Below are positions 7,614 through 50,942 of a stretch of DNA of 64,000 bases, one piece after another. Positions within the stretch are counted from its first letter, which is position 1, and each line of letters begins with the position of its first letter. Under the pieces are notes generated by a model. It did no database searches, was not told the origin of the DNA, and saw only the letters and a list, made by a program, of their open reading frames with translations. Source of the stretch: Brevundimonas naejangsanensis (GTDB taxonomy: Bacteria; Pseudomonadota; Alphaproteobacteria; Caulobacterales; Caulobacteraceae); NCBI RefSeq assembly GCF_003627995.1, contig NZ_CP032707.1:1664501-1728500 (forward strand), written 5' to 3'. The position numbers and the translations under genes are program-made.

Positions 7614-8254
7614 ACCTGGTGATCGCCGTCGACGGCCCCGCCGCCTCGGGCAAGGGCACCATCGCCGCGCGCCTGGCCGCCCACTACGGCCTGCCGTATC
7701 TGGACACCGGCCTGCTGTATCGCGCCGTGGGTCTGGCGGTGCTGGACGCGGGCGGGGACCTCGGCGACGCCGAGGCCGCGGCCGAGGCGGCGCGGGCGCT
7801 GGACCTGACGACCCTGAGCGACAATCCGCGCCTGACCGGGCGCGGCGCGGGCGAGGCGGCCAGCCGCGTGGCCAGCTATCCGGGCGTGCGCGCGGCCTTG
7901 CTCAAGCTGCAGCAGGACTTCGCCGCGCAAGCCGGCGGGGCGGTGCTGGACGGCCGCGACATCGGCACGGTGATCGCGCCCGAAGCCCCGGCCAAGCTCT
8001 ATGTCGCCGCCACGCCCGAGGTGCGGGCCGAGCGCCGCTGGAAGCAGCTGACCGCGCGCGGCGAGGTCATCGCCTTCGAGGACATGCTGGAGGATATCCG
8101 CCGCCGCGACGCCCGCGACGCCGGCCGCGACGACGCCCCGATGGTCCAGGCCGAGGACGCCGTCTTGCTGGACACGACCGATCTGGGTATAGAAGCTGCC
8201 TTCGATGCGGCCCGCCGTATCGTCGAGGCGGCGCGAGCCAGGGCCGGGATCTGA
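7610..8254 (+). CDS. cmk: (d)CMP kinase
   Basis: 214 residues, the usual length. It phosphorylates CMP and dCMP with ATP in pyrimidine nucleotide recycling. The Walker A loop GPAASGKGT is at residues 9-17. [23 protein letters not shown] and the arginine-rich [15 protein letters not shown] lid are the family landmarks. It overlaps aroA by four bases and precedes rpsA, the classical cmk-rpsA order. The 183 bases before rpsA probably hold a separate rpsA promoter, but no clear consensus was found. Confidence 0.95.
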
Positions 8255-40070: not shown

Positions 40071-41729
40071 TCAGGCGGCGGACCGGGCGTTGATCACGTC
40101 GAAGATCGCCGCGAAGAGCTTGTCGACCTCGATGGGCTTGGCCACCAGGCCGTCCATGCCCGCCTGTCGATACTCCGCGAGCTGATGATCCATGGCGTTG
40201 GCCGTCAGGGCGAGGATCGGCGTGCGCGCCTGCCCCCGGTCCAGTTCGCGCCGCCGGATGATCGAGGTGGCCGTCGGGCCGTCCATCTCGGGCATCTGCA
40301 CGTCCATCAGGATCAGGTCCCAGGGCTGGTCCTCCCAGGCCGACACGGCCGCCCGGCCATCGGGGACGATGACCGGCGCGATGCCCGCCTGTCGCAGCAG
40401 GGTGTCGATGACGAGCTGATTGGCGCGATTGTCCTCGGCCACCAGCAGGCGCACCGACGCGGCGTGCGCGGCCTCCACAGCCTCCTCGGCCAGGTCCGGC
40501 AGGGGCGGCACCTCGCCGACGTGTTCGAGGGGCAGGCGCACGGTGAAGGTCGCACCGGCCCCGACCGGGGTGTCGCAGGCGGCGATGTCGCCGCCCATCA
40601 GCCGCACCAGGTCCTGACAGATGGCCAGGCCCAGCCCCGTGCCGCCGTGGCGGCGGGTGACGGCGAGGTCGCCTTGCTCGAACTTGCTGAAAAGCCGGTC
40701 GCGGATCTCGGGGGATATCCCCATGCCGGTGTCCCTGACCGCGATGATCAGGCGGCCGTCCTCGCGGTCGACGGCGACCTCGACCCGGCCGCGCTCGGTG
40801 AATTTGACGGCGTTCGAGATCAGGTTGTTGAGCACCTGGCGCAGCCGCAGGGGATCGCCGACGTAGGCGCCCTGGGCCTGGGGCGCGATGCGGGCCTCGA
40901 ACGTCAGCCCTTTTTGCGCAGCCAGGGCCGAGAAGGTCTCGCAGGCGCCCTCGATCAGCGCGCCGAGGTCGAACTCCAGCATCTCGATCTCGAGCTTGCC
41001 GGCTTCGATCTTGGACAGGTCGAGCATGTCGTTGAGCGTGCCCAGCAGGCTCTCGCCCGACCGGCGGATGATGTCGAGCCGCTCCGCCTGCTTGGGCGAC
41101 AGAGGGTCGCGGGCCATGGCCTGCGCCATGCCCAGAACGCCGTTCAGCGGCGTGCGGACCTCATGGCTCATGGCGGCCAGGAAGGCCGATTTGGCGGCGT
41201 TGGCGGCGATGGCGTCGCTGACGGCCTGATTCAGCGCGGCCTCGGTCGCCACGCGGTCCGAGATGTCGCGGATGATGGCCGTGTAGATCATGCCGCTGCG
41301 CGTCGTCACCTTCGACAGGCCGACCTCGATCGGCGTCAGGCGGCCGTCCTTGGTCAGGCCGGTGATGTCCTGGCGATTGCCCATGCGGCGGCTGAGGATG
41401 GCCCCCGCGGCGAAGCCCTGGACGCGCTGCCGGTGCGCCTGGCGGCTGTCGTGCGGGATGAGCATGTCGATGGACTGGCCCAGGGCCTCGGAGGCCGAAT
41501 AGCCGAAGATGGCCTCGGCCCCCTTGCTGAACAGCAGGATCCGCTGATCCTGGTCCGCGACGATGATCCCCTCGGACGAGATGTTCAGGATGCTGCTGAG
41601 GATGTCCTCCAGGGTTTCGGGCAGGCCGGCCTGAACCGCCAGGCTCCGGGTCAGGGCGCTCCGGGCGTGGCGCCAGCGCGAGCGGGCGTCGCGGGCGCCC
41701 GCTCTGCCGAGGTGATGGCCATGTGTCAT
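40071..41729 (-). CDS. Soluble PAS hybrid histidine kinase
   Basis: About 552 residues. There is no membrane helix. A PAS domain (ILNISSEGIIVADQDQRILLFSKGAEAIFGYSASEALG...) with PAC (IIRDISDR) leads to HisKA (AAMSHEVRTPLNGVLGMAQAM). The HATPase has NNLISNAVKFTERG, DTGMGI and GTGLGLAICQDLVRLMGG. A C-terminal receiver has VAEDN, LILMDVQMPEMDG and AKP. The start at 41729 was chosen for its GGAGGGG site; a TTG at 41789 would add 20 residues. The gene is next to the HTH-BLUF gene on the same strand, but a functional link is not shown. Confidence 0.9.
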   Translation of the reverse strand: MTHGHHLGRAGARDARSRWRHARSALTRSLAVQAGLPETLEDILSSILNISSEGIIVADQDQRILLFSKGAEAIFGYSASEALGQSIDMLIPHDSRQAHRQRVQGFAAGAILSRRMGNRQDITGLTKDGRLTPIEVGLSKVTTRSGMIYTAIIRDISDRVATEAALNQAVSDAIAANAAKSAFLAAMSHEVRTPLNGVLGMAQAMARDPLSPKQAERLDIIRRSGESLLGTLNDMLDLSKIEAGKLEIEMLEFDLGALIEGACETFSALAAQKGLTFEARIAPQAQGAYVGDPLRLRQVLNNLISNAVKFTERGRVEVAVDREDGRLIIAVRDTGMGISPEIRDRLFSKFEQGDLAVTRRHGGTGLGLAICQDLVRLMGGDIAACDTPVGAGATFTVRLPLEHVGEVPPLPDLAEEAVEAAHAASVRLLVAEDNRANQLVIDTLLRQAGIAPVIVPDGRAAVSAWEDQPWDLILMDVQMPEMDGPTATSIIRRRELDRGQARTPILALTANAMDHQLAEYRQAGMDGLVAKPIEVDKLFAAIFDVINARSAA

Positions 41730-41902
41730 GGGCGAGCCCCTCCGACCGGTTTCCTCTGCGGACGGATCCAGCGCTCCGTCCGCCGTCAAGCTTACTGGGA
41801 TTTCGTCGGTTTGAGAGCTTTGTTCGGCTGATTTTCGAAATTAAATTGTTCTAAATCAAAAGATTATCTGTCCAGTAATGAAAGTTGGCCTCCTGCTGTC
41901 TT

Positions 41903-42739
41903 TCAATGCGCCTGAGGGGCAATGGCGCTTGCCGGCGGATGTGGTCCGCCGCTGCAGGTGGAGTCCATGCAGGTCGCCGCCAAGGGGCAGGCGCCGGGTG
42001 CGCCGCGGGCGTTGCGCGGCGCCATCCGCTGAAGATCCTGCGCCAGGCCGAGCAGGCCCGCCGCCGCGTTCGGCGTCAGCGCGGCCGGTTGGAACTCGCC
42101 CTGAAAGGCGGGTTCGCCCGCCGTCAGCTGGATGTCCGAAGGGAACAGGCCGCAGCAGAAGCTGAATTCCGGGAACTGGCGCCGCGTGATGGAGCGATCC
42201 TCCAGCAGGCGAAGGTCCCGGTGTTGGGGATAGCAGCTGATGGCGCGATAGGCCTGGTGCACGCTGGCCCGGTCGCCTTCGAGGGCCTGCAGCAGGTGGC
42301 CTTCCCGGGCGAAGATGATGCCCGTGATGCCGAGGCCGGCGTGCAGGGCCAGGGCTTCGGAGTGGATGTAGGCCAGCATCGGGCGCAGGCTGCCCTCGCC
42401 GGTTCTCTCGATCCGGCTGTGGTAGATCAGGCGGTGCAGGTCGGCGTCCGCGTCGGGCGCGGCGCGGCGCGGCGCGGGCTGGGCCTCGGCCGCATCGCGA
42501 AGAACCCCGACCTGGCCGCCGCCGTCGCCGGCGAACCGGACGCCCAGGGCCGCGAAGGCCTCCTGGATGGCGCGCAGGGTGCGGGCATTGGCGTCCACGG
42601 GGCCGCGGATGCGTTCCAGCCGCTTGATGGTCTCCAGGCTGAGGCTTGATCGCCGCGCCAGTTCGGCTTGCTCGATTCTGGAGAGCGCGCGCGCCGCGCG
42701 AATCTGTTCGCCGGTCAGGGTTAGTATGTTGAAGGACAT
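41903..42739 (-). CDS. XRE-type helix-turn-helix fused to a BLUF blue-light domain
   Basis: 278 residues. Residues about 8-71 are an XRE-like DNA-binding domain (LTGEQIRAARALSRIEQAELARR...TIKRLE, then ANARTLRAIQEAFAALGVRF). After a linker, residues 101-195 match BLUF flavin photoreceptors: LHRLIYHSR, ITGIIFAREGHLLQALEG, and the RDLRLLEDRSITRRQFPEF end. The photochemical Tyr (106) and Gln (151) are conserved. The flavin-contacting Asn of AppA is His133 here, and the semi-conserved Trp is Phe192. A Cys-containing tail of about 80 residues follows. No enzymatic output domain exists. The likely role is a light- or redox-modulated transcription factor; this is inference from the architecture. Confidence 0.82.
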   Translation of the reverse strand: MSFNILTLTGEQIRAARALSRIEQAELARRSSLSLETIKRLERIRGPVDANARTLRAIQEAFAALGVRFAGDGGGQVGVLRDAAEAQPAPRRAAPDADADLHRLIYHSRIERTGEGSLRPMLAYIHSEALALHAGLGITGIIFAREGHLLQALEGDRASVHQAYRAISCYPQHRDLRLLEDRSITRRQFPEFSFCCGLFPSDIQLTAGEPAFQGEFQPAALTPNAAAGLLGLAQDLQRMAPRNARGAPGACPLAATCMDSTCSGGPHPPASAIAPQAH

Positions 42740-42995
42740 GTTGCTATCGAAACTATTTTATTGCACTCAAGGTGTAATTATATGCATTTGTGGCGACAAA
42801 ACTTCTACATTTTGTAGCTTGTTGCGAACAAATGAGATTGTCGATGCTGTTGCCCCTCCTCTCGACATTAACTCTATGTTGTCACGATTTGAGTCGTAAC
42901 TTCGATTATTGATCTTCATTCGCGAAGTTAGGTGCTTTCTGCCTAGGCGATATTTGGATCGAGCGTTGCAGTGACGCTGTTAGGAGGTGAAGGCA
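42740..42995. promoter_or_regulatory. AT-rich divergent regulatory region between HTH-BLUF gene and cheB
   Basis: 256 bases, conspicuously richer in A/T than the surroundings and without an ORF. It holds three adjacent dyads: TTTGT-GGCG-ACAAA (42787-42800), CTACA-TTT-TGTAG (42805-42817) and TTGTT-GCG-AACAA (42819-42831). An 8-bp inverted repeat TAACTTCG/CGAAGTTA (42897-42904, 42923-42930) and a sigma-54-like element follow. The dyads are 48-92 bases before the HTH-BLUF start. Confidence 0.5.
42955..42970 (+). promoter_or_regulatory. Candidate sigma-54 promoter of cheB
   Basis: TGGATCG-AGCG-TTGCA has GG and GC separated by exactly 10 bases and matches TTGCW fully, but two of the TGGCACG bases differ. 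The implied start lies just before the AGGAGG of cheB. Confidence 0.3.
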
Positions 42996-44072
42996 ATGGG
43001 GAACGCCTCACAGGCGATCAAAGTGATGATCGTCGACGATTCCGCGGTGGTGCGCGGGGTCGTCCGGCGTCTGCTGGAGGCGGAGCCTGGGCTTGAGGTG
43101 GCGGCGACCGCGACGAACGGCGAGGCGGCACTGCGCGAATTGGGACAACGCACGGTGGACGTCGTCCTGCTGGACGTCGAGATGCCGATCATGGGCGGGC
43201 TGGAGGCGCTGCGGCGGATCGTGGTCGACCACCCGGCGGTCAAGGTGGTCATGGTGTCGACCCTGACGCGGCGAAACGCCGAGATCAGTCTGGAGGCCCT
43301 GCGGATCGGCGCCGCCGACTATGTGACCAAGCCCGAGGCCGGCATCGCCGCCGCCGCCGAGTTCGGCCGCGACCTGATCGCCAGGGTGAAGGCGCTGGCC
43401 GCGTCGCGCGGCCCCCGGCCGACGGTCCCGGCCGCGTCGCCGCGCCGGATCGGCGGTCTCGGGCTTCGTGACGGAGGCGGTCGGCCGCGCCTGGTGCGCG
43501 CGCTGGGCATCGGCGCCTCGACCGGCGGGCCGCCCGCCCTGCTCGGACTGTTCCGGGCCCTGCAGGGCGGCAGCGGCCGGCAGCCCATCCTGGTGGCCCA
43601 GCATATGCCCGCCACCTTCACCGCCCTGCTGGCCGAACAGATCGAGCGCGCGGCGGGGCGGCCCTGCGCCGAGGGGCGGGACGGCGAGCCGGTCCTGCCG
43701 GGCCGCATCTATGTCGCGCCGGGCGGCTGGCACATGACGGTGGAGAACGGGCCGACCTCGCCGATCATCCGCCTGGACCAGACCGCGCCCGAGCATTTCT
43801 GCCGTCCGGCGGTGGACCCCATGCTGCGCAGCCTGGCGACCGTCTATGGCGACGGGGCCCTGGCGGCGATCCTGACGGGGATGGGGGCCGACGGGGCGGC
43901 GGGCTGCGAGGCGGTGGCGCGCGCCGGCGGCCGCTTCATCGCCCAGGACCAGGCCACCAGCGCGGTCTGGGGCATGCCGGCGGCGGCGGCGGCGACGGGG
44001 CTGGCCGAGGCCGTCCTGCCGCTGGACGAGATCGGGCCGTGGCTGCGGCGCACGACGGAGGCGGGGGCGTGA
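42996..44072 (+). CDS. cheB: Chemotaxis protein-glutamate methylesterase CheB
   Basis: 358 residues. CheB removes methyl groups from chemoreceptors when phosphorylated by CheA. The receiver has VDDSAVVRG, phosphoacceptor Asp in LLDVEMPIMGG, and TKPE. The esterase has GIGASTGGPPALLGLF (catalytic Ser), AQHMPATFT (His) and TGMGADGAAG (Asp). ATG 42996 follows AGGAGG by 8 bases. It overlaps cheR by GTGA. Confidence 0.95.
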   Translation: MGNASQAIKVMIVDDSAVVRGVVRRLLEAEPGLEVAATATNGEAALRELGQRTVDVVLLDVEMPIMGGLEALRRIVVDHPAVKVVMVSTLTRRNAEISLEALRIGAADYVTKPEAGIAAAAEFGRDLIARVKALAASRGPRPTVPAASPRRIGGLGLRDGGGRPRLVRALGIGASTGGPPALLGLFRALQGGSGRQPILVAQHMPATFTALLAEQIERAAGRPCAEGRDGEPVLPGRIYVAPGGWHMTVENGPTSPIIRLDQTAPEHFCRPAVDPMLRSLATVYGDGALAAILTGMGADGAAGCEAVARAGGRFIAQDQATSAVWGMPAAAAATGLAEAVLPLDEIGPWLRRTTEAGA

Positions 44073-44905
44073 CCGGGCCGGATTTCGAGCATTTCTGCCG
44101 TTTGGTGAAGGATCGCTCGGGCCTCGTCCTGACCCCGCACAAGGGCTACCTGGTCGAGAGCCGGCTGAACCAGGTGGCGCGCGCCGAGGGGCTGTCGGGG
44201 GTGCCGCAGCTGCTGGAGCGGCTGCGCCTGGGCGGGCCGTCGGTCGAGCCGCTGCTGGTCCGCTGCGTCGAGGCGATGGCGACGCATGAGTCCTTCTTCT
44301 TCCGTGACGGCACGCCGTTCGACCTGCTGGCCGGGCGGGTGCTGCCGCGGCTGGTCGAGGCGCGGGCGGCGACGCGGACGCTGCGGATCTGGTGCGCCGC
44401 CTGCTCCAGCGGCCAGGAGCCCTATTCCATCGCCATCCTGCTGAAGGAGATGGGCGCGCGGCTGGCCGGCTGGCGGCTGGAGATCACGGCCACCGATCTG
44501 TCGCGGTCGATCTTGAAGAAGGCCGAGGCGGGCCTCTACAGCGACTTCGAGGTTCGGCGCGGCCTGACCGACGCCCGGCGCGAGCGCTGGTTCGTGCGCG
44601 AGGAGCAGGGCTGGCGGGTCAGCCCGGACCTGCGCGCCCTGGTCGGCTTTCGCCCGCACAACCTGCTGGACGGCGGCTTTCCGGGCGGATTCGACGTGAT
44701 CTTCTGCCGCAACGTCCTGATCTATTTCGACGTCGAGCAGAAGCGGACGGTGCTGCAAGGGATGGCGCGCGCCCTGGCCGAGGACGGCGCCCTGTTCCTG
44801 GGCAGCGCCGAGACGGTGCTGGGCGTCACCGACGCCTTCGAACTGACGCCGGGCGCGGCGGGCCTGTTCCGCCGCCCTGTCGGCGAGCGCGCCCGCATCG
44901 CCTGA
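44069..44905 (+). CDS. cheR: Chemotaxis protein methyltransferase CheR
   Basis: 278 residues. CheR methylates glutamates of chemoreceptors with SAM. DFEHFCRLVKDRSGLVLTPHKGYLVESRL forms the N-terminal helical domain. MATHESFFFRD, WCAACSSGQEPYSIA (SAM loop), ATDLS and DVIFCRNVLIYF are the catalytic motifs. A GTG start overlaps the cheB stop. It converges with the receptor gene. Confidence 0.95.
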   Translation: MTGPDFEHFCRLVKDRSGLVLTPHKGYLVESRLNQVARAEGLSGVPQLLERLRLGGPSVEPLLVRCVEAMATHESFFFRDGTPFDLLAGRVLPRLVEARAATRTLRIWCAACSSGQEPYSIAILLKEMGARLAGWRLEITATDLSRSILKKAEAGLYSDFEVRRGLTDARRERWFVREEQGWRVSPDLRALVGFRPHNLLDGGFPGGFDVIFCRNVLIYFDVEQKRTVLQGMARALAEDGALFLGSAETVLGVTDAFELTPGAAGLFRRPVGERARIA

Positions 44906-44928: not shown

Positions 44929-46524
44929 CTAGGCCCGCATGAAGGCTTCGATCTCGGCGCGCAGCACGTCCAGCTCGCGCGCCTTGTCCGTCAGGTTCGC
45001 CGTCGCCGCCAGCATGTCGGTGGCGGCCTGGGCGTTGTCCGAGGCGGCGGCGGTCACGGCGACGATGTTGGCCGAGACCTCGCGCGTGCCCATGGCCGCT
45101 TCCTGGACGTTGCGGGTGATCTCCTGCGTCGCGGCGCCCTGTTCCTCGACCGCGCTGGCGATGGCGGAGGAGGCTTCGCTGGCGCGCTCGATGGTGCGGC
45201 GGATGCTCTCGATGGCGCTGACGGCGGCCTGGCTGGCCTTCTGGATCGAGCTGACCTGATCGGCGATCTGCTTGGTGGCGCGGGCCGTCTGGTCGGCCAG
45301 GTTCTTCACCTCCGAGGCGACGACGGCGAAGCCCTTGCCCGCCTCGCCCGCGCGGGCGGACTCGATGGTGGCGTTCAGGGCCAGCAGCTTGGTCTGGGCG
45401 GCGATCTCCTGGATCAGGCCGACGACCTCGCCGACCCGCTCGGCCGAGTCGGCCAGGCCGCGCATGGTCTCGTCGGTGGACAGGGCCTCCTCGACCGCGT
45501 GGCGCGAGATGCTGCTGGACTGCTCGACCTGGCGGGTGATCTCCTGGATCGAGGCCGACAGCTCCTCGGCCGCGGCGGCCACGGTCTGGACGTTGGACGA
45601 GGCCTCGTCGGAGGCGACGGCCACGGCCGAGGCCTGGCTGTTGGTCTCCTCGGCGCTGCCGGCCATGCCTTCCGCCATGCGGCTCAGGGCGGCGGCGGCC
45701 CCGGCGACGTCCTGGCTGAAGTCGTTGACGCGGTCGATGAAGCGCACCTGTTCGGTCACGACCGCCCAGGTCAGCATCAGGCCCGAGATTGCGCCCTCGG
45801 GCGTTCGCACGGCGGCGATGTTGAGGTCCAGCCTGTGCTCGCCCAGCTGGATCAGCGCCCGGTGCGGCAGGCGCGACGGATCGGCCAGCAGGCGGCGCTG
45901 GTGCTCGGGATGCTTGTGGAAGATGTCGATCGACTGGCCGATCATCTGGTCGACCGCGACCGGCAGAAGGTGCTGCAGTGGGCGCAGGGTCTCGACCGAG
46001 CGCCGGTTCACATAGGTCAGCCGCAGCTCCTCCGGCTCGCACAGCATGACGTTCAGGGGCATGTCGTCCAGCATCCGCAACAGGCGCTGGTTGTCCCGCT
46101 CGGCCTTGACGCGCGCGGTCTGCAGCGACCAGGTCGTCATGGCGGCGACATAGCGCCCCTTGCTGTCCGTCACCGCGCTGACCAGCAGCTCCAGGTGCTC
46201 GCCGCCGATCTCGATGGTCGCGCGGTGCGGCAGGTTGGCCGGGTCGGCCAGCATCCGGCGCTGGTGGGCGGGGTTCTTGTGAAAGACGTCGATGGAGGCG
46301 CCGACCAGCTGGTCCGCGCGGATCGGCAGGACGTGTTCGATCGTGCGCAGCGTCGCCAGGGTGGCCTTGTTGGCGTAGGCGATGCGGAAGTCGACCAGGT
46401 CGCAGATCATGACGTTGACGGGGGCGTCGTCCAGAAGACGCCGGAAGTCGGGCGTCCAGGCGGCGGGCGCCTTGCCGTCTTGGTCGAGGGGGCGGGCGCT
46501 GCGCGCCGCTGTGCCGCTGGTCAT
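44929..46524 (-). CDS. Soluble chemoreceptor with two tandem PAS domains
   Basis: 531 residues with no membrane helix, signal peptide or HAMP domain. Two PAS domains (about residues 26-135 and 150-262) are clearly an internal duplication: both contain the pattern MxxxLxxLPxxxxQxxGxSIDxFHKxPxHQRRxLADP and LPHRAxI. The methyl-accepting signalling domain follows, with the hairpin tip [37 protein letters not shown]. The likely input is a cytoplasmic redox or small-molecule cue. It is the first gene upstream of... in transcription order it is last after cheA and cheW, 57 bases from cheW. Confidence 0.92.
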
Positions 46525-46581: not shown

Positions 46582-47064
46582 TCAGGCGGCGGGGCCGTCG
46601 CCGGGCGGCGGGTCGTCCAGCGCCAGGACGGCCTGGGTGCGCAGCACCAGCATCAGCCGGTCCTCCAGCCGATAGAGGCCGTCGCACAGGCGTCGCCAGG
46701 CGGGCGACAGGGTCGACGGGGTGGGTTCGTGCGCCGAGGGCGGCAGCCACAGCACGTCGCCGACGTCGTCGACCATCAGGGCGTAAAGCTCGCCCGAGGC
46801 CTGTTCGACGATGACGGAGACGCCGCCGTCTTCCTGAAGGGCGGCCGGGGGCGGCAGGCCCAGGCGGCGGCGCATGTCCACGGCGGTGACGATGCGCCCG
46901 CGCAGGTTCAGGGAGCCGGCGATCTCGGGCGGGGCCAGGGGGATGCGGCTGATCGCGGTCTGGGCGATCACGTCCTGCACCTCCAGCACCGGCACGCCGA
47001 AGGTCTGGCCGCCGATCTGGACCGAGACCAGTCCGGCCTCGGCGGTCGCGTCCGGGGCGCTCAT
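46582..47064 (-). CDS. cheW: Chemotaxis coupling protein CheW
   Basis: 160 residues. CheW links receptors to CheA. LVSVQIGGQTFGVPVLEVQDVIAQTAISRIPLAPPEIAGSLNLRGRIVTAVDMRRRLGL is the diagnostic N-terminal half, and YALMVDDVGDVL follows. The start at 47064 overlaps the cheA stop (ATGA) and excludes the arginine-rich upstream frame. Confidence 0.93.
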   Translation of the reverse strand: MSAPDATAEAGLVSVQIGGQTFGVPVLEVQDVIAQTAISRIPLAPPEIAGSLNLRGRIVTAVDMRRRLGLPPPAALQEDGGVSVIVEQASGELYALMVDDVGDVLWLPPSAHEPTPSTLSPAWRRLCDGLYRLEDRLMLVLRTQAVLALDDPPPGDGPAA

Positions 47065-49898
47065 GCCGCCGCGCTCTCGGGCGTCAGGGCGTCGGACACG
47101 GCGTCCAGCAGCAGGGCGGCGTCCAGCGCCGGGCCGCCGTCGGGCCCGTCGAGCCGGCCCAGGCTCAGCAGCGGGGTCGCGCGCCATCGGTCGGCGCCGG
47201 CCAGGATGCGGGCGAAGGCGCGCGCGCGGCCGGGTTGCAGATCGGCCAGGATCAGGTCGAAGTCCTCGCCGGCGTCGTGGCGGGCCAGGGCCCCCTCGGC
47301 GTCCGGGACCACGGTCACGACGTAGCCGGTCTGGGCGAGCAGCGGGCGCAACAGCATCTGGGAAAAGGGACTGGCGTCGATGATCAGCAGGCGTTTCACG
47401 GCGGCGACCGCGCCCGCCTCGGCCGTGGCCGCGACGTCGAAGGCCCGGCGACGATAGGCGTCGACGTCGATCAGGTCGGCGGCCTGGTCGAGCACGATCA
47501 GGCTGCCCAGGGTCAGCCCGCCCGCCCGGCCGATCTCGGGCGGGGCGCAGGCGTCGACGATGTCCACGATCTCTTCGATCAGCAGGCCCAGGCTCTGCTC
47601 GCCGCGCGCGAGCACCAGCAGGGGGCGGCGGCCGGGGCCGGACCAGTCCGGGGCGCGCCCGTCGGCCCCCAGGATCGGCATCAGACGGCCGCGATAGCGC
47701 ATGACGGCGCGGCCTTCGACCCGTTCGACCTGGGCGGACTCGATCTCTTCGATGCGCGATACGGCGGCCAGGGGGGCCGCCCGCAGGGTCGGGTCCGAGG
47801 CGCGGAACAGCAGCATGGCCTCCTCCTTCGGCGGCGGCGCCTCGGCCGTTCGGGACGCGTCCGCGTCGGGCTCCGCTAGGCGGCCGGCGACTTGTTCGAC
47901 GCCCGCGGCGCGCGCGGCGCCCTTGGGGTCCAGGATCAGGATGACCGCCCCGTCGCCGAGGATGGTCGCGCCCGAGTAGAGGTTGAGGTGGCGCAGCACC
48001 CCGGCCACCGGCTTGACCACGATCTCCTCGATGTCGAAGACGCGGTCGACAATGACGCCGAAGGCGCAGGCGCCGAAATGGGTGACGACGATGCAGGTCT
48101 CGCTGGTCGCGGCGGGCGGGCCGTCGTCGTCCAGCTTGAGCAGCCGCCGCAGCGACACCAGCGGCAGCAGCCGCTCGCGCAGGCGCAGGACGGGGGCGCC
48201 GTCGATCTGTTCGATGCTGCGGCCCGAGGCGTCGCCGGCGTTGACCAGCTCCATGATCGACGACTGGGGCAGGGCGAAACGCACGCCGCCCGCCTCGACG
48301 ATCAGGGCCGAGACGATGGCCAGGGTCAGGGGGATGCGGACGGTGAAGCAGGCCCCCTGGCCCTCCTTGGACGTCAGTTCGATCACGCCGCCGATCTGTT
48401 CGATGTTGGCGCGGACCACGTCCATGCCGACGCCGCGGCCGGAGACGCTGGTGACCTGGGAGGCGGTCGAGAAACCGGCGCGGAAGATCAGCTGCATCGC
48501 CTCGGCGTCGCTGATCTGCTCGGCCTCCGCGGGGCTCAGCAGGCCGAGGGACGCCGCCTTGGCCCGCAGGCGGGCCACCGACAGGCCGCGGCCGTCGTCG
48601 GCCACCTCGATGACGATGGCCCCGCCTTCGTGGCGCGCCGACAGGGTGATGCGCCCGACCTCGCGCTTGCCGACGGCGCGGCGCTGCTCCGGCGTCTCCA
48701 GGCCGTGGTCGGCGGCGTTGCGGATCATGTGGGTCAGCGGGTCGCGGATCAGCTCCATGACCTGCCGGTCCAGCTCGGTCTCCTGGCCGGACATGCGCAG
48801 CTCGATGCGCTTGCCCAGTTCGTTCTCCAGGTCGCGCACCAGACGCGGCAGCTTGGCCCAGGCGCCGCCGATCGGCTGCATCCGCGAGACCATGACCTTT
48901 TCCTGGATCTCGCTGGTCACCTGGTTGAGGCGATGCAGCGGGGCCTTGAACGGGCTTTCCGGCTCCTGGCGCAGGGTCTGGATCATCTGGTTGCGGATCA
49001 GCACCAGTTCGCTGACCGAGCGCATCAGCTGCTCCAGGACTTCGACGTTGATGCGGATGGTGGCGGCCGACTTGCCCGCGCCGGCCGGCGTTGATGGCGC
49101 GGCTTCGGTCGGCGGCGGCGCGGGGGGCGGCGGCGGCGCAGCGGCGCCGGCGCAGGCGCGCAGCTCGGCCACGTCGTCGGGGGCGGCTCCCAGGGCGTCC
49201 AGGGCGGCGGCGACGGCCTCGAACAGGGGCGCGCGCATCTCGTCCGGCAGTCGGACGTGGGCGATGTCCTCTAGCGCTCGGGCCAGGGCCGAGGCGTCGC
49301 CGCCCCGCGCCGCGCCCAGCAGGCCCTGCAGCAACGCCGCCTGCAGCAGGACGGGGTCGGCCCCGCCCAGCCAGGGCTCGGTCAGCAGCGCCGGGGCGGC
49401 GGCCTCGGCGGCCGCGTCCAGCACGGCGTCGCCGCCTAGGCGCTCGATGAGAGGGCGCTCGACCAAGGGGCGCTCGATCGGTGCGCTCTCAGGCAGGTGC
49501 GGCGCCGGGCGCGGCGCGGCGGCTGCGGCGCAGGCGGCCTCCAGGCGGGTGATGAGCGCGGCGTCCTCGCCCGCCGGCTCCTCGCCGGTGGCGTCCAGAG
49601 CGTCGATCAGGCCGCGGATCACGTCCACCGACTCCAGGATGGTGGTGACGGCGGCGGCGCTGACGGACACGGAGCCGTCGCGAAATCCGCCCAGCACCTC
49701 TTCCGCCGCGTGGGCGATGCGCTGCAGCCGCACGAGGCCGATGAAGCCACAGGCGCCCTTGATGGTGTGCATCAGGCGGAAGACGCCGGCCAGAGGCTCG
49801 GGATCGCGCGGATTGCGCTCGAAGCGCACCAACTCGCTGTCGAGCGCCTCGAGCCCTTCGCGCGTCTCGGCGATGAAGTCGCTCAGAACCTCGTCCAC
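47061..49898 (-). CDS. cheA: Hybrid chemotaxis histidine kinase CheA with two CheW-like domains and a receiver
   Basis: 945 residues. The HPt domain has His44 in FRLMHTIKGACGF. After a long Ala/Pro-rich linker come the dimerisation helices (VEVLEQLMRSVSELVLIRNQM), the kinase domain (HMIRNAADHG, DDGRGL, SGRGVGMDVVRANIEQIGG) and a CheW-like P5 domain (about 550-690). A second CheW-like domain (about 700-815) and a C-terminal receiver follow. In the receiver one acidic-pocket Asp is Ala (LIIDAS) and the usual KP lysine is absent, though the phosphoacceptor Asp (LILADLQ) remains. It has no P2 CheY-docking domain of the E. coli type. It is transcribed first, then cheW and the receptor. Confidence 0.93.
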   Translation of the reverse strand: MDEVLSDFIAETREGLEALDSELVRFERNPRDPEPLAGVFRLMHTIKGACGFIGLVRLQRIAHAAEEVLGGFRDGSVSVSAAAVTTILESVDVIRGLIDALDATGEEPAGEDAALITRLEAACAAAAAPRPAPHLPESAPIERPLVERPLIERLGGDAVLDAAAEAAAPALLTEPWLGGADPVLLQAALLQGLLGAARGGDASALARALEDIAHVRLPDEMRAPLFEAVAAALDALGAAPDDVAELRACAGAAAPPPPPAPPPTEAAPSTPAGAGKSAATIRINVEVLEQLMRSVSELVLIRNQMIQTLRQEPESPFKAPLHRLNQVTSEIQEKVMVSRMQPIGGAWAKLPRLVRDLENELGKRIELRMSGQETELDRQVMELIRDPLTHMIRNAADHGLETPEQRRAVGKREVGRITLSARHEGGAIVIEVADDGRGLSVARLRAKAASLGLLSPAEAEQISDAEAMQLIFRAGFSTASQVTSVSGRGVGMDVVRANIEQIGGVIELTSKEGQGACFTVRIPLTLAIVSALIVEAGGVRFALPQSSIMELVNAGDASGRSIEQIDGAPVLRLRERLLPLVSLRRLLKLDDDGPPAATSETCIVVTHFGACAFGVIVDRVFDIEEIVVKPVAGVLRHLNLYSGATILGDGAVILILDPKGAARAAGVEQVAGRLAEPDADASRTAEAPPPKEEAMLLFRASDPTLRAAPLAAVSRIEEIESAQVERVEGRAVMRYRGRLMPILGADGRAPDWSGPGRRPLLVLARGEQSLGLLIEEIVDIVDACAPPEIGRAGGLTLGSLIVLDQAADLIDVDAYRRRAFDVAATAEAGAVAAVKRLLIIDASPFSQMLLRPLLAQTGYVVTVVPDAEGALARHDAGEDFDLILADLQPGRARAFARILAGADRWRATPLLSLGRLDGPDGGPALDAALLLDAVSDALTPESAAA

Positions 49899-50196
49899 GG
49901 CCCCTCCTGCCCAGCGAACGAATGCATGGAATAGGGTCGTTATCTAAGATTCGTTTTGATTGATACAGTTAGTCGTCAAGGAGCGGTGCAAATTTGTAAC
50001 AATAAAATAATTTAGATATCAATCTAGATGTGTATTACGTGCATCAAATACATAGATTTGTGTATATAAATACGCCTAGGGTGTATTTTTAAGAGTCGCC
50101 ATAAGGCGTTTTGGTCTTTGATTTAAATCAATATCCAGAATTTGTTGACGGTATCGCGCTTCGATGAGCTCCACTGATCACGGGGGTGAGGGAAGT
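49899..50196. promoter_or_regulatory. AT-rich divergent regulatory region between cheA and cheY
   Basis: 298 bases with strong A/T bias and no ORF. Palindromes CAAATTTG (49989-49996) and TTGTAACAA (49994-50002) overlap. GTGTAT occurs at 50030, 50057 and 50080, and ATACA/TGTAT pairs around them. The arrangement suggests operators or a nucleoid-protein site serving both promoters. No standard promoter is certain. Confidence 0.5.
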
Positions 50197-50583
50197 ATGG
50201 CTGTCGACAAGTCGATGAAGATCCTGGTCGTCGACGACTACAAGACGATGGTGCGGATCGTGAGAGGGCTGCTGAACCAGCTCGGATTCCATAATGTGGA
50301 CGAGGCGACCGACGGGCCCACCGCCCTGTCGATGATCGGCGCCGGGGGCTACGGCCTGGTCCTGTCGGACTGGAACATGGCGCCGATGACGGGCTTCGAA
50401 CTGTTGAAGGCGGTGCGCGCCGATCCGAAGACCAAGTCTCTGCCCTTCGTCCTGGTGACCGCCGAGGCCAAGATCGAGAACGTCATCGCGGCGCGCCAGG
50501 CGGGGGTGAACAACTACATAATCAAGCCCTTCACCCACGCCGTGCTGAAGCAGAAGCTGACCGCCGTCCTGGGCGAGTTCTGA
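50197..50583 (+). CDS. cheY: Chemotaxis response regulator CheY
   Basis: 128 residues, a single receiver domain. VVDDYKTMVRIVRGLLNQLGF holds the acidic pocket, LSDWNMAPMTGFELL the phosphoacceptor Asp, VTAEAK the switch Thr and IIKPFT the Lys. ATG 50197 follows GAGGGAAG; ATG 50164 is a less likely start. It is divergent from cheA and followed after two bases by the CheZ-like gene. Confidence 0.94.
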   Translation: MAVDKSMKILVVDDYKTMVRIVRGLLNQLGFHNVDEATDGPTALSMIGAGGYGLVLSDWNMAPMTGFELLKAVRADPKTKSLPFVLVTAEAKIENVIAARQAGVNNYIIKPFTHAVLKQKLTAVLGEF

Positions 50584-50585
50584 CG

Positions 50586-50942
50586 ATGGCCGAAGCGGAC
50601 GGGCTCGATGAGGCGATCGCCGCGATCCGGCAGGATCTGTCGGCGGCGGCGGAGCGGTTGATGGCGGCGGCGGAGGCCGGGCTGGTCGACGTCGGCCGGG
50701 CGCGCGACGGCGACGGCGACGCCCTGTCGCGGATCGAGGCGGGGTGGCTCGGCGTGCTGGAAGCCTGCGCGTTCGAGGACCTGATCGGCCAGCGGCTGAC
50801 CGGGCTGCGCTCCGCCTGCGTCCCGGCGCCTCTCGGCGGGGCCGTCGAGACGCGGGATGCCCTGCTGAACGGCCCCGCAGCGCCCGGCCTGGGGCTCGAT
50901 CAGGCGCAGGTCGACGCCTGGCTCGCGGGCGGCGACGGCTGA
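50586..50942 (+). CDS. Short CheZ-like CheY phosphatase
   Basis: 118 residues, about half the length of E. coli CheZ. The helical core contains EACAFEDLIGQRLTGL, which matches the CheZ active-site pattern FQDLTGQ and keeps its Asp and Gln. The C-terminal LLNGPAAPGLGLDQAQVDAWLA resembles the CheY-binding tail of alphaproteobacterial CheZ homologues. The position two bases after cheY supports a CheY-P phosphatase role. The assignment rests on short motifs. Confidence 0.62.
   Translation: MAEADGLDEAIAAIRQDLSAAAERLMAAAEAGLVDVGRARDGDGDALSRIEAGWLGVLEACAFEDLIGQRLTGLRSACVPAPLGGAVETRDALLNGPAAPGLGLDQAQVDAWLAGGDG

Follow-up and report, generated by a model that had tools for sequence, protein, structure and literature searches.

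The window, i.e., the whole 64,000-nt stretch of Brevundimonas naejangsanensis DNA analyzed here, contains a gene for a protein that carries an XRE-type helix-turn-helix (HTH) domain, a BLUF domain and a cysteine-bearing tail in a single chain (Table 1). This gene is oriented divergently to cheB-cheR, which is followed by the genes of a methyl-accepting chemotaxis protein (MCP), CheW, CheA and a CheY-type receiver, and a gene for a PAS-containing hybrid histidine kinase is located downstream of it. The PAS domain of the kinase is closest to the haem PAS of DosP and FixL, with its RQAH aligned to RPAH of DosP; a haem or oxygen sensor adjacent to the XRE-BLUF regulator is, on this resemblance, possible. 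A 118-aa ORF (50586-50942), located 3' of the cheY-type gene and occupying the corresponding place in L076, L042 and G308, has no Pfam match at E ≤ 0.001.

Table 1. Genes, protein domains and candidate regulatory sites at the XRE-BLUF locus (window positions)
Feature	Positions	Strand	Remarks
PAS-HisKA-HATPase-receiver hybrid histidine kinase	40071..41789	-	PAS closest to DosP and FixL
XRE-BLUF-Cys protein	41903..42739	-	one chain, 278 aa
Weak third operator-like site	41905..41922	-	3' end of XRE-BLUF, upstream of hybrid kinase; 14.8 bits
Cys tail C251-x5-C257-x4-C262 (trio)	41954..41989	-	trio in 174/213 rows
BLUF domain + C-terminal helices	42017..42445	-	residues 99-241; Tyr106, His133, Gln151, Phe192, Phe194
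Cys195-Cys196	42152..42157	-	end of last BLUF strand; C196 in 171/174 trio rows
XRE-type HTH domain	42494..42730	-	residues 4-82
Operator-like site TTACACCTTGAGTGCAAT	42760..42777	-	~20 nt before XRE-BLUF start, in the region common with cheB
cheB	42987..44072	+	
cheR	44039..44905	+	
MCP with two PAS_8 stretches	44929..46524	-	
cheW	46582..47187	-	
cheA	47061..49898	-	
Second operator-like site	50069..50087	.	between cheA and cheY starts; 20.2 bits
cheY-type receiver	50164..50583	+	PF00072; CheY label by context

The sequence-only reading had described this protein as an XRE-type HTH fused directly to a BLUF domain. The fusion was confirmed by the uninterrupted ORF, by the domains themselves and by the existence of many relatives with both domains, which rules out two genes joined by a sequencing error. 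Of the profile matches that it had asked for, the one to BLUF was obtained (58.1 bits vs. a curated cut-off of 25), whereas HTH_3 stayed under its cut-off (13.6 vs. 23 bits), as did HTH_31 (16.6 vs. 27 bits). The predicted structure of the HTH part is nevertheless a five-helix XRE-type fold, and the BLUF fold is predicted with high confidence. Tyr106 and Gln151 at the flavin position are both present, and the flavin-contacting Asn is absent, its place being taken by His133, in agreement with the same reading; all 24 of the 24 ordinary BLUF controls have Asn. The second BLUF protein of the genome (L001, G000:C1:975951-976229) has Phe in place of the photochemical Tyr and keeps Asn, Gln, Trp and Met.

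Database searches, in which the 7995-7997 candidates with most words in common were scored and the best 120 of 204, 230 and 229 matches were retained, yielded 204 proteins matching the window protein at E ≤ 0.001, the best 120 of which cover 89-100% of the query. Where a source is named among the matches listed, it is Brevundimonas, Phenylobacterium, Caulobacter or a Caulobacteraceae bacterium, apart from single matches in Allosphingosinicella and in a Pseudomonadota MAG. At E ≤ 1e-30 the family profile matches 21 of 390 Caulobacteraceae genomes, 14 via both domains and seven via XRE or BLUF alone; the Cys type is found in nine of the 14 two-domain genomes (G000, G074, G165, G273, G281, G297, G299, G302, and G348). 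Among 385 genomes across the class, the window's own genome is the only one with a two-domain match at E ≤ 1e-25. A plasmid-borne family was rejected, as none of the 30 matching plasmid records does so over 80% of the protein. Two irregular copies were observed: in G166 (L036/L082) a second XRE-BLUF copy at the conserved che locus is split over two reading frames, and in G178 (L086) a tandem pair of XRE-BLUF genes, both without the Cys tail, adjoins cheB-cheR.

The che arrangement of the window is also present in L076, L041 (= L098), L077, L079 and L082, some of them with one or two genes uncalled. In L042 the XRE-BLUF gene is located at the opposite (cheY) end of the che cluster, in L045 and L047 part of the cluster is visible, in L080 the cluster is more distant from XRE-BLUF and a recognizable operator-like site is absent, and in L100 the kinase gene alone, with no che gene, stands beside XRE-BLUF. 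The Cys-less L086 and L099 adjoin cheB/cheR, and the Cys site is therefore unnecessary for the che context; no che genes were found in about 16-17 kb around the Cys-less L078, L081, L083 and L085. An XRE-only gene occupies exactly the XRE-BLUF slot in L126, and in L121 and L048 such a gene is located three genes away from cheB. Within the genus, the near cheB (E ≤ 1e-60) was recorded in six of the eight XRE-BLUF genomes vs. 11 of the 123 others.

An 18-bp near-palindrome, positioned 19-26 nt before the start codon, is common to nine relatives. Motif discovery was performed on nine of 11 upstream regions (three of the sources being close kin), those of L080 and L086 having been excluded beforehand and scanned later. 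A 17-mer run (150 starts) reached 16.5 bits, with eight of nine sites near the start codon and the L042 site set by eye, and a second run (40 starts, other seed) reached 18.5 bits, as compared with 11.2-12.7 bits in 12 shuffled sets. The later scan yielded 20.3 bits for L086, before its second XRE-BLUF copy, and no site upstream of L080 (best 3.1 bits). When a matrix derived from six sites outside the window's clade was applied to the window, the own-promoter site ranked first (25.7 bits), the cheA-cheY site second and the pre-kinase site third; 20 block-shuffled windows peak at 9.6-16.0 bits, one of the 20 exceeding the score of the third site. L076 has an operator-like site at the same place as this weak site, and the cheA-cheY intergenic site is shared by the window, L076 and L041. 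In G308, whose DNA was unused for motif discovery, the identical 18-mer is located between cheA and cheY, and in G273 an operator-like site adjoins cheB. In L126, TTACACCTCAAGTGTATT lies immediately upstream of the start of the XRE-only gene.

Elsewhere in the 3.0-Mb genome, no other match to the 18-mer was found within three mismatches. The pattern WTRCNCYYNRRGYGYAWT, which was drawn up with the three window sites already known and was fitted to those three, matches only them in this genome (reversed control, 0). Across the genus it matches 14 of 131 genomes, namely five of eight with XRE-BLUF vs. nine of 123 without (p 0.0003), an enrichment that becomes 2/5 vs. 9/123 (p 0.058) upon removal of the three source genomes. 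Of its matches elsewhere, those of L133 and L134 fall inside called genes, and those of L130 and L132 are intergenic and without che kin. An operator-like site precedes an unlinked MCP-like gene of G165 (L131, 5808-5825), a hint at a wider regulon. A CTACA/TGTAG repeat near 42805 was rejected as an operator, not being apparent by eye upstream of relatives. Taken together, the findings support an autoregulated regulator that acts locally on the chemotaxis locus, and the one-chain XRE-BLUF transcription factor envisaged by the sequence-only reading is well supported by the domains, the predicted fold, the conserved HTH and the operator-like site before its own gene.

What such a regulator might sense is suggested by the distribution of its cysteines, which, like the chemotaxis locus, had escaped the sequence-only reading. 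C196, C251, C257 and C262 are each present in 120 of the best 120 of 204 relatives; because ranking could by itself produce such uniformity, the searches were renewed with the family alignment and with divergent members that have no Cys tail. In the alignment of 213 rows (197 proteins and 16 genome-mined sequences, some of them duplicates, fragment L082_3 being left out), where the counts rest on related sequences and on best-120 match lists, all four cysteines occur in 171 rows, three in three, one in four and none in 35. C196 accompanies the trio closely (171/174 trio rows vs. 4/39 rows without trio). The three trio rows lacking C196 form one clade and all have Cys at position 203, which is seen in one further row of the 213; one ligand swap is thus possible in this clade. 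The trio was rejected as a general BLUF feature, being found in none of 13 parsed short BLUFs and none of 25 BLUF control matches. The adjacent C195 is probably ancestral, since short BLUFs carry WxMC too (11 of 13). None of the fold matches listed covers the Cys tail as a domain of its own. Additional HTH/linker cysteines at alignment columns 31, 72 and 80 occur in 79, 72 and 80 of the 174 trio rows, respectively, and are absent from the window protein. This pattern suggests that C196 and C251/C257/C262 form either a thiol site or one for a metal (Fe-S or Zn), and that light sensing is optional.

The light-sensing residues behave differently from the four cysteines. Changes were counted on a tree of 141 rows (116 trio bearers and 25 rows without trio; clustered at 82%, without W_10, P0016 and P0180, and with the trait columns masked), built by a quick method and containing many open forks, on which the trio itself needs four changes. 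Among the 116 trio bearers, C196 requires one change (three rows without it), vs. at least six for Gln (38 rows without), nine for Tyr (15), four for Asn (57) and four for Trp (33); in the 25 rows without trio, Gln is missing in two, Tyr in four and Asn in five. Independent-pairs tests (trio vs. C196 or Gln; Gln vs. Asn) had too few pairs for significance. Most of the nearest relatives of the window protein among the matches listed keep Tyr and Gln, the exceptions seen being P0048 (Trp), P0074 (Ala) and L076, which is 67% identical to the window protein and in which Tyr is replaced by Cys and Gln by His. Gln and Tyr are described in a review as essential for BLUF photoactivation, which is inhibited when either is removed (PMC3915823). 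According to the same review, introducing a positive charge at Asn31 of Slr1694 with the aim of raising the flavin potential lowered the efficiency of electron transfer; with its spacing of 18 to Gln, His133 corresponds to the position that follows Asn31, and by analogy we infer that His or Lys at position 133 may affect electron transfer in a similar way. To judge from the alignment, close relatives have often lost light-sensing residues and hardly ever the cysteines. The repeated loss of Gln and Tyr among Cys-bearing members, L076 included, makes the family lean to light being dispensable, even with Tyr106 and Gln151 kept in the window protein. The earlier proposal of modified photochemistry or a light-blind redox sensor has partial support.

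A true blue-light transcription factor, in which Tyr106-Gln151 photochemistry tuned by His133 and Phe192 switches XRE binding and the cysteines serve as a structural Zn clamp, appears rather unlikely, despite the Tyr/Gln pair of the window protein and its close relatives. Tyr, Asn and Gln are all kept in 30 of the 42 rows without all four Cys, and the wider XRE-BLUF family therefore looks photoactive; against this reading, Ser, Gly, Glu or His takes the place of Gln in 66 of the 171 four-Cys rows, including the lineages L045 and L042 with che context. A disulfide or thiol switch for oxidants in place of a metal site would agree with the location of the four cysteines in the tail and near the point where the BLUF core ends, and thiol redox control of a partner is familiar from AppA. 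We nevertheless regard it as improbable, as the strict C-x5-C-x4-C spacing, the confident order of the model (mean pLDDT 90-91 for residues 241-260) and what looks like a swap from C196 to position 203 in one clade all fit a metal site better. Least probable of all is a BLUF domain of the Cys clade that has lost flavin to become a dimerization scaffold, with control by protein level as in XRE-only paralogues: the drift of photochemical residues and the XRE-only paralogue with the same site in the same slot (L126) speak for it, and the confidently predicted BLUF fold, the retention of His173 in 165 of 174 trio rows and the changes at position 133, most of which introduce Lys (50 of the 171 four-Cys rows) or His (41) and look like tuning, speak against it.

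The reading that we favor, and consider on balance probable, is an autoregulated one-component regulator of the chemotaxis locus with redox or metal sensing via flavin and the Cys4 site, perhaps with light as well. The XRE HTH, presumably as a dimer, would bind sites of the TTACACCTTGAGTGCAAT type in front of its own gene and in the cheA-cheY interval. It probably acts as a repressor, given that the operator-like site lies some 20 nt upstream of the start codon. Flavin would be held by the BLUF domain, the end of its last strand being joined to the site formed by C196 and C251/C257/C262, which may bind Fe-S or Zn or serve as a thiol switch. The redox, O2, NO or metal state of this site, with flavin as a partner, would then set DNA binding. 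That the family holds on to the cysteines and loses light residues points to a redox, metal or gas signal via the Cys4 site on the flavin domain, with light as an input that is optional or lost; blue light may still enter via Tyr106/Gln151 in the window protein, and is not what the family conserves. More tentatively, and at somewhat less than even chances, a BLUF light receptor may have been repurposed as a flavin plus Fe-S (Cys4) redox/gas sensor on an XRE HTH that governs the whole che locus via its own dedicated operator, some lineages having retained the light input and others having given it up.

A comparison with known systems revealed partial similarities. The short BLUF photoreceptors PixD/Slr1694, Tll0078 and BlsA have no HTH and no Cys tail, and the window protein differs from them by His for Asn and Phe for Trp. 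The E. coli BluF/BluR system, as described (PMC3509220), likewise directs a BLUF signal to a repressor adjoining a divergent target operon; it nevertheless comprises two proteins, with MerR-like DNA binding in BluR and BLUF fused to EAL in BluF, so that the earlier citation of BluR as a DNA-binding BLUF fusion was mistaken. The window protein, with an XRE-like HTH and BLUF in one chain, is not of the BluR type (MerR HTH, no BLUF). RtrA, RtrB and CdxA of Caulobacter and phage TgrL are likewise XRE regulators in Caulobacteraceae with a radiation of paralogues; they are described as having no recognizable C-terminal domain, unlike the window protein, and target hfiA and gafYZ (PMC10688885). Kinship with phage TgrL found no support in a search at E ≤ 1e-5, which yielded four Rhodobacter phages and not phiCbK. 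Fe-S regulators of the Rrf2 family (IscR, NsrR) resemble the window protein by analogy only, in three closely spaced cysteines, which NsrR is described as combining with Asp8 from the other monomer (PMC5411485); an Rrf2 domain is absent among Pfam matches of the window protein up to E 1. PhrB-type photolyases are described as photoproteins that carry an Fe-S cluster in addition to flavin (PMC3204975, PMC12082625), and their family is unrelated to the window protein, whose Fe-S cluster is putative. EL222 similarly joins a light sensor and an HTH in one chain (PMC4844311), with a LOV fold and LOV photochemistry as the difference. A 2014 survey assigns 64% of BLUF proteins to short and 34% to EAL-linked forms and describes HTH proteins as quite frequent among LOV and BLUF proteins combined (PMC4844311). 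Within the literature collection covered, exact searches found no paper on an XRE-BLUF or HTH-BLUF protein.

In this family, nature provides BLUF regulators that consist of one chain and have candidate operators, as well as a series of proteins that lose light-sensing residues and yet hold on to a new Cys site. Such a series makes it testable whether BLUF domains can be light-independent redox sensors, a question that is tied here to the transcription of chemotaxis genes.
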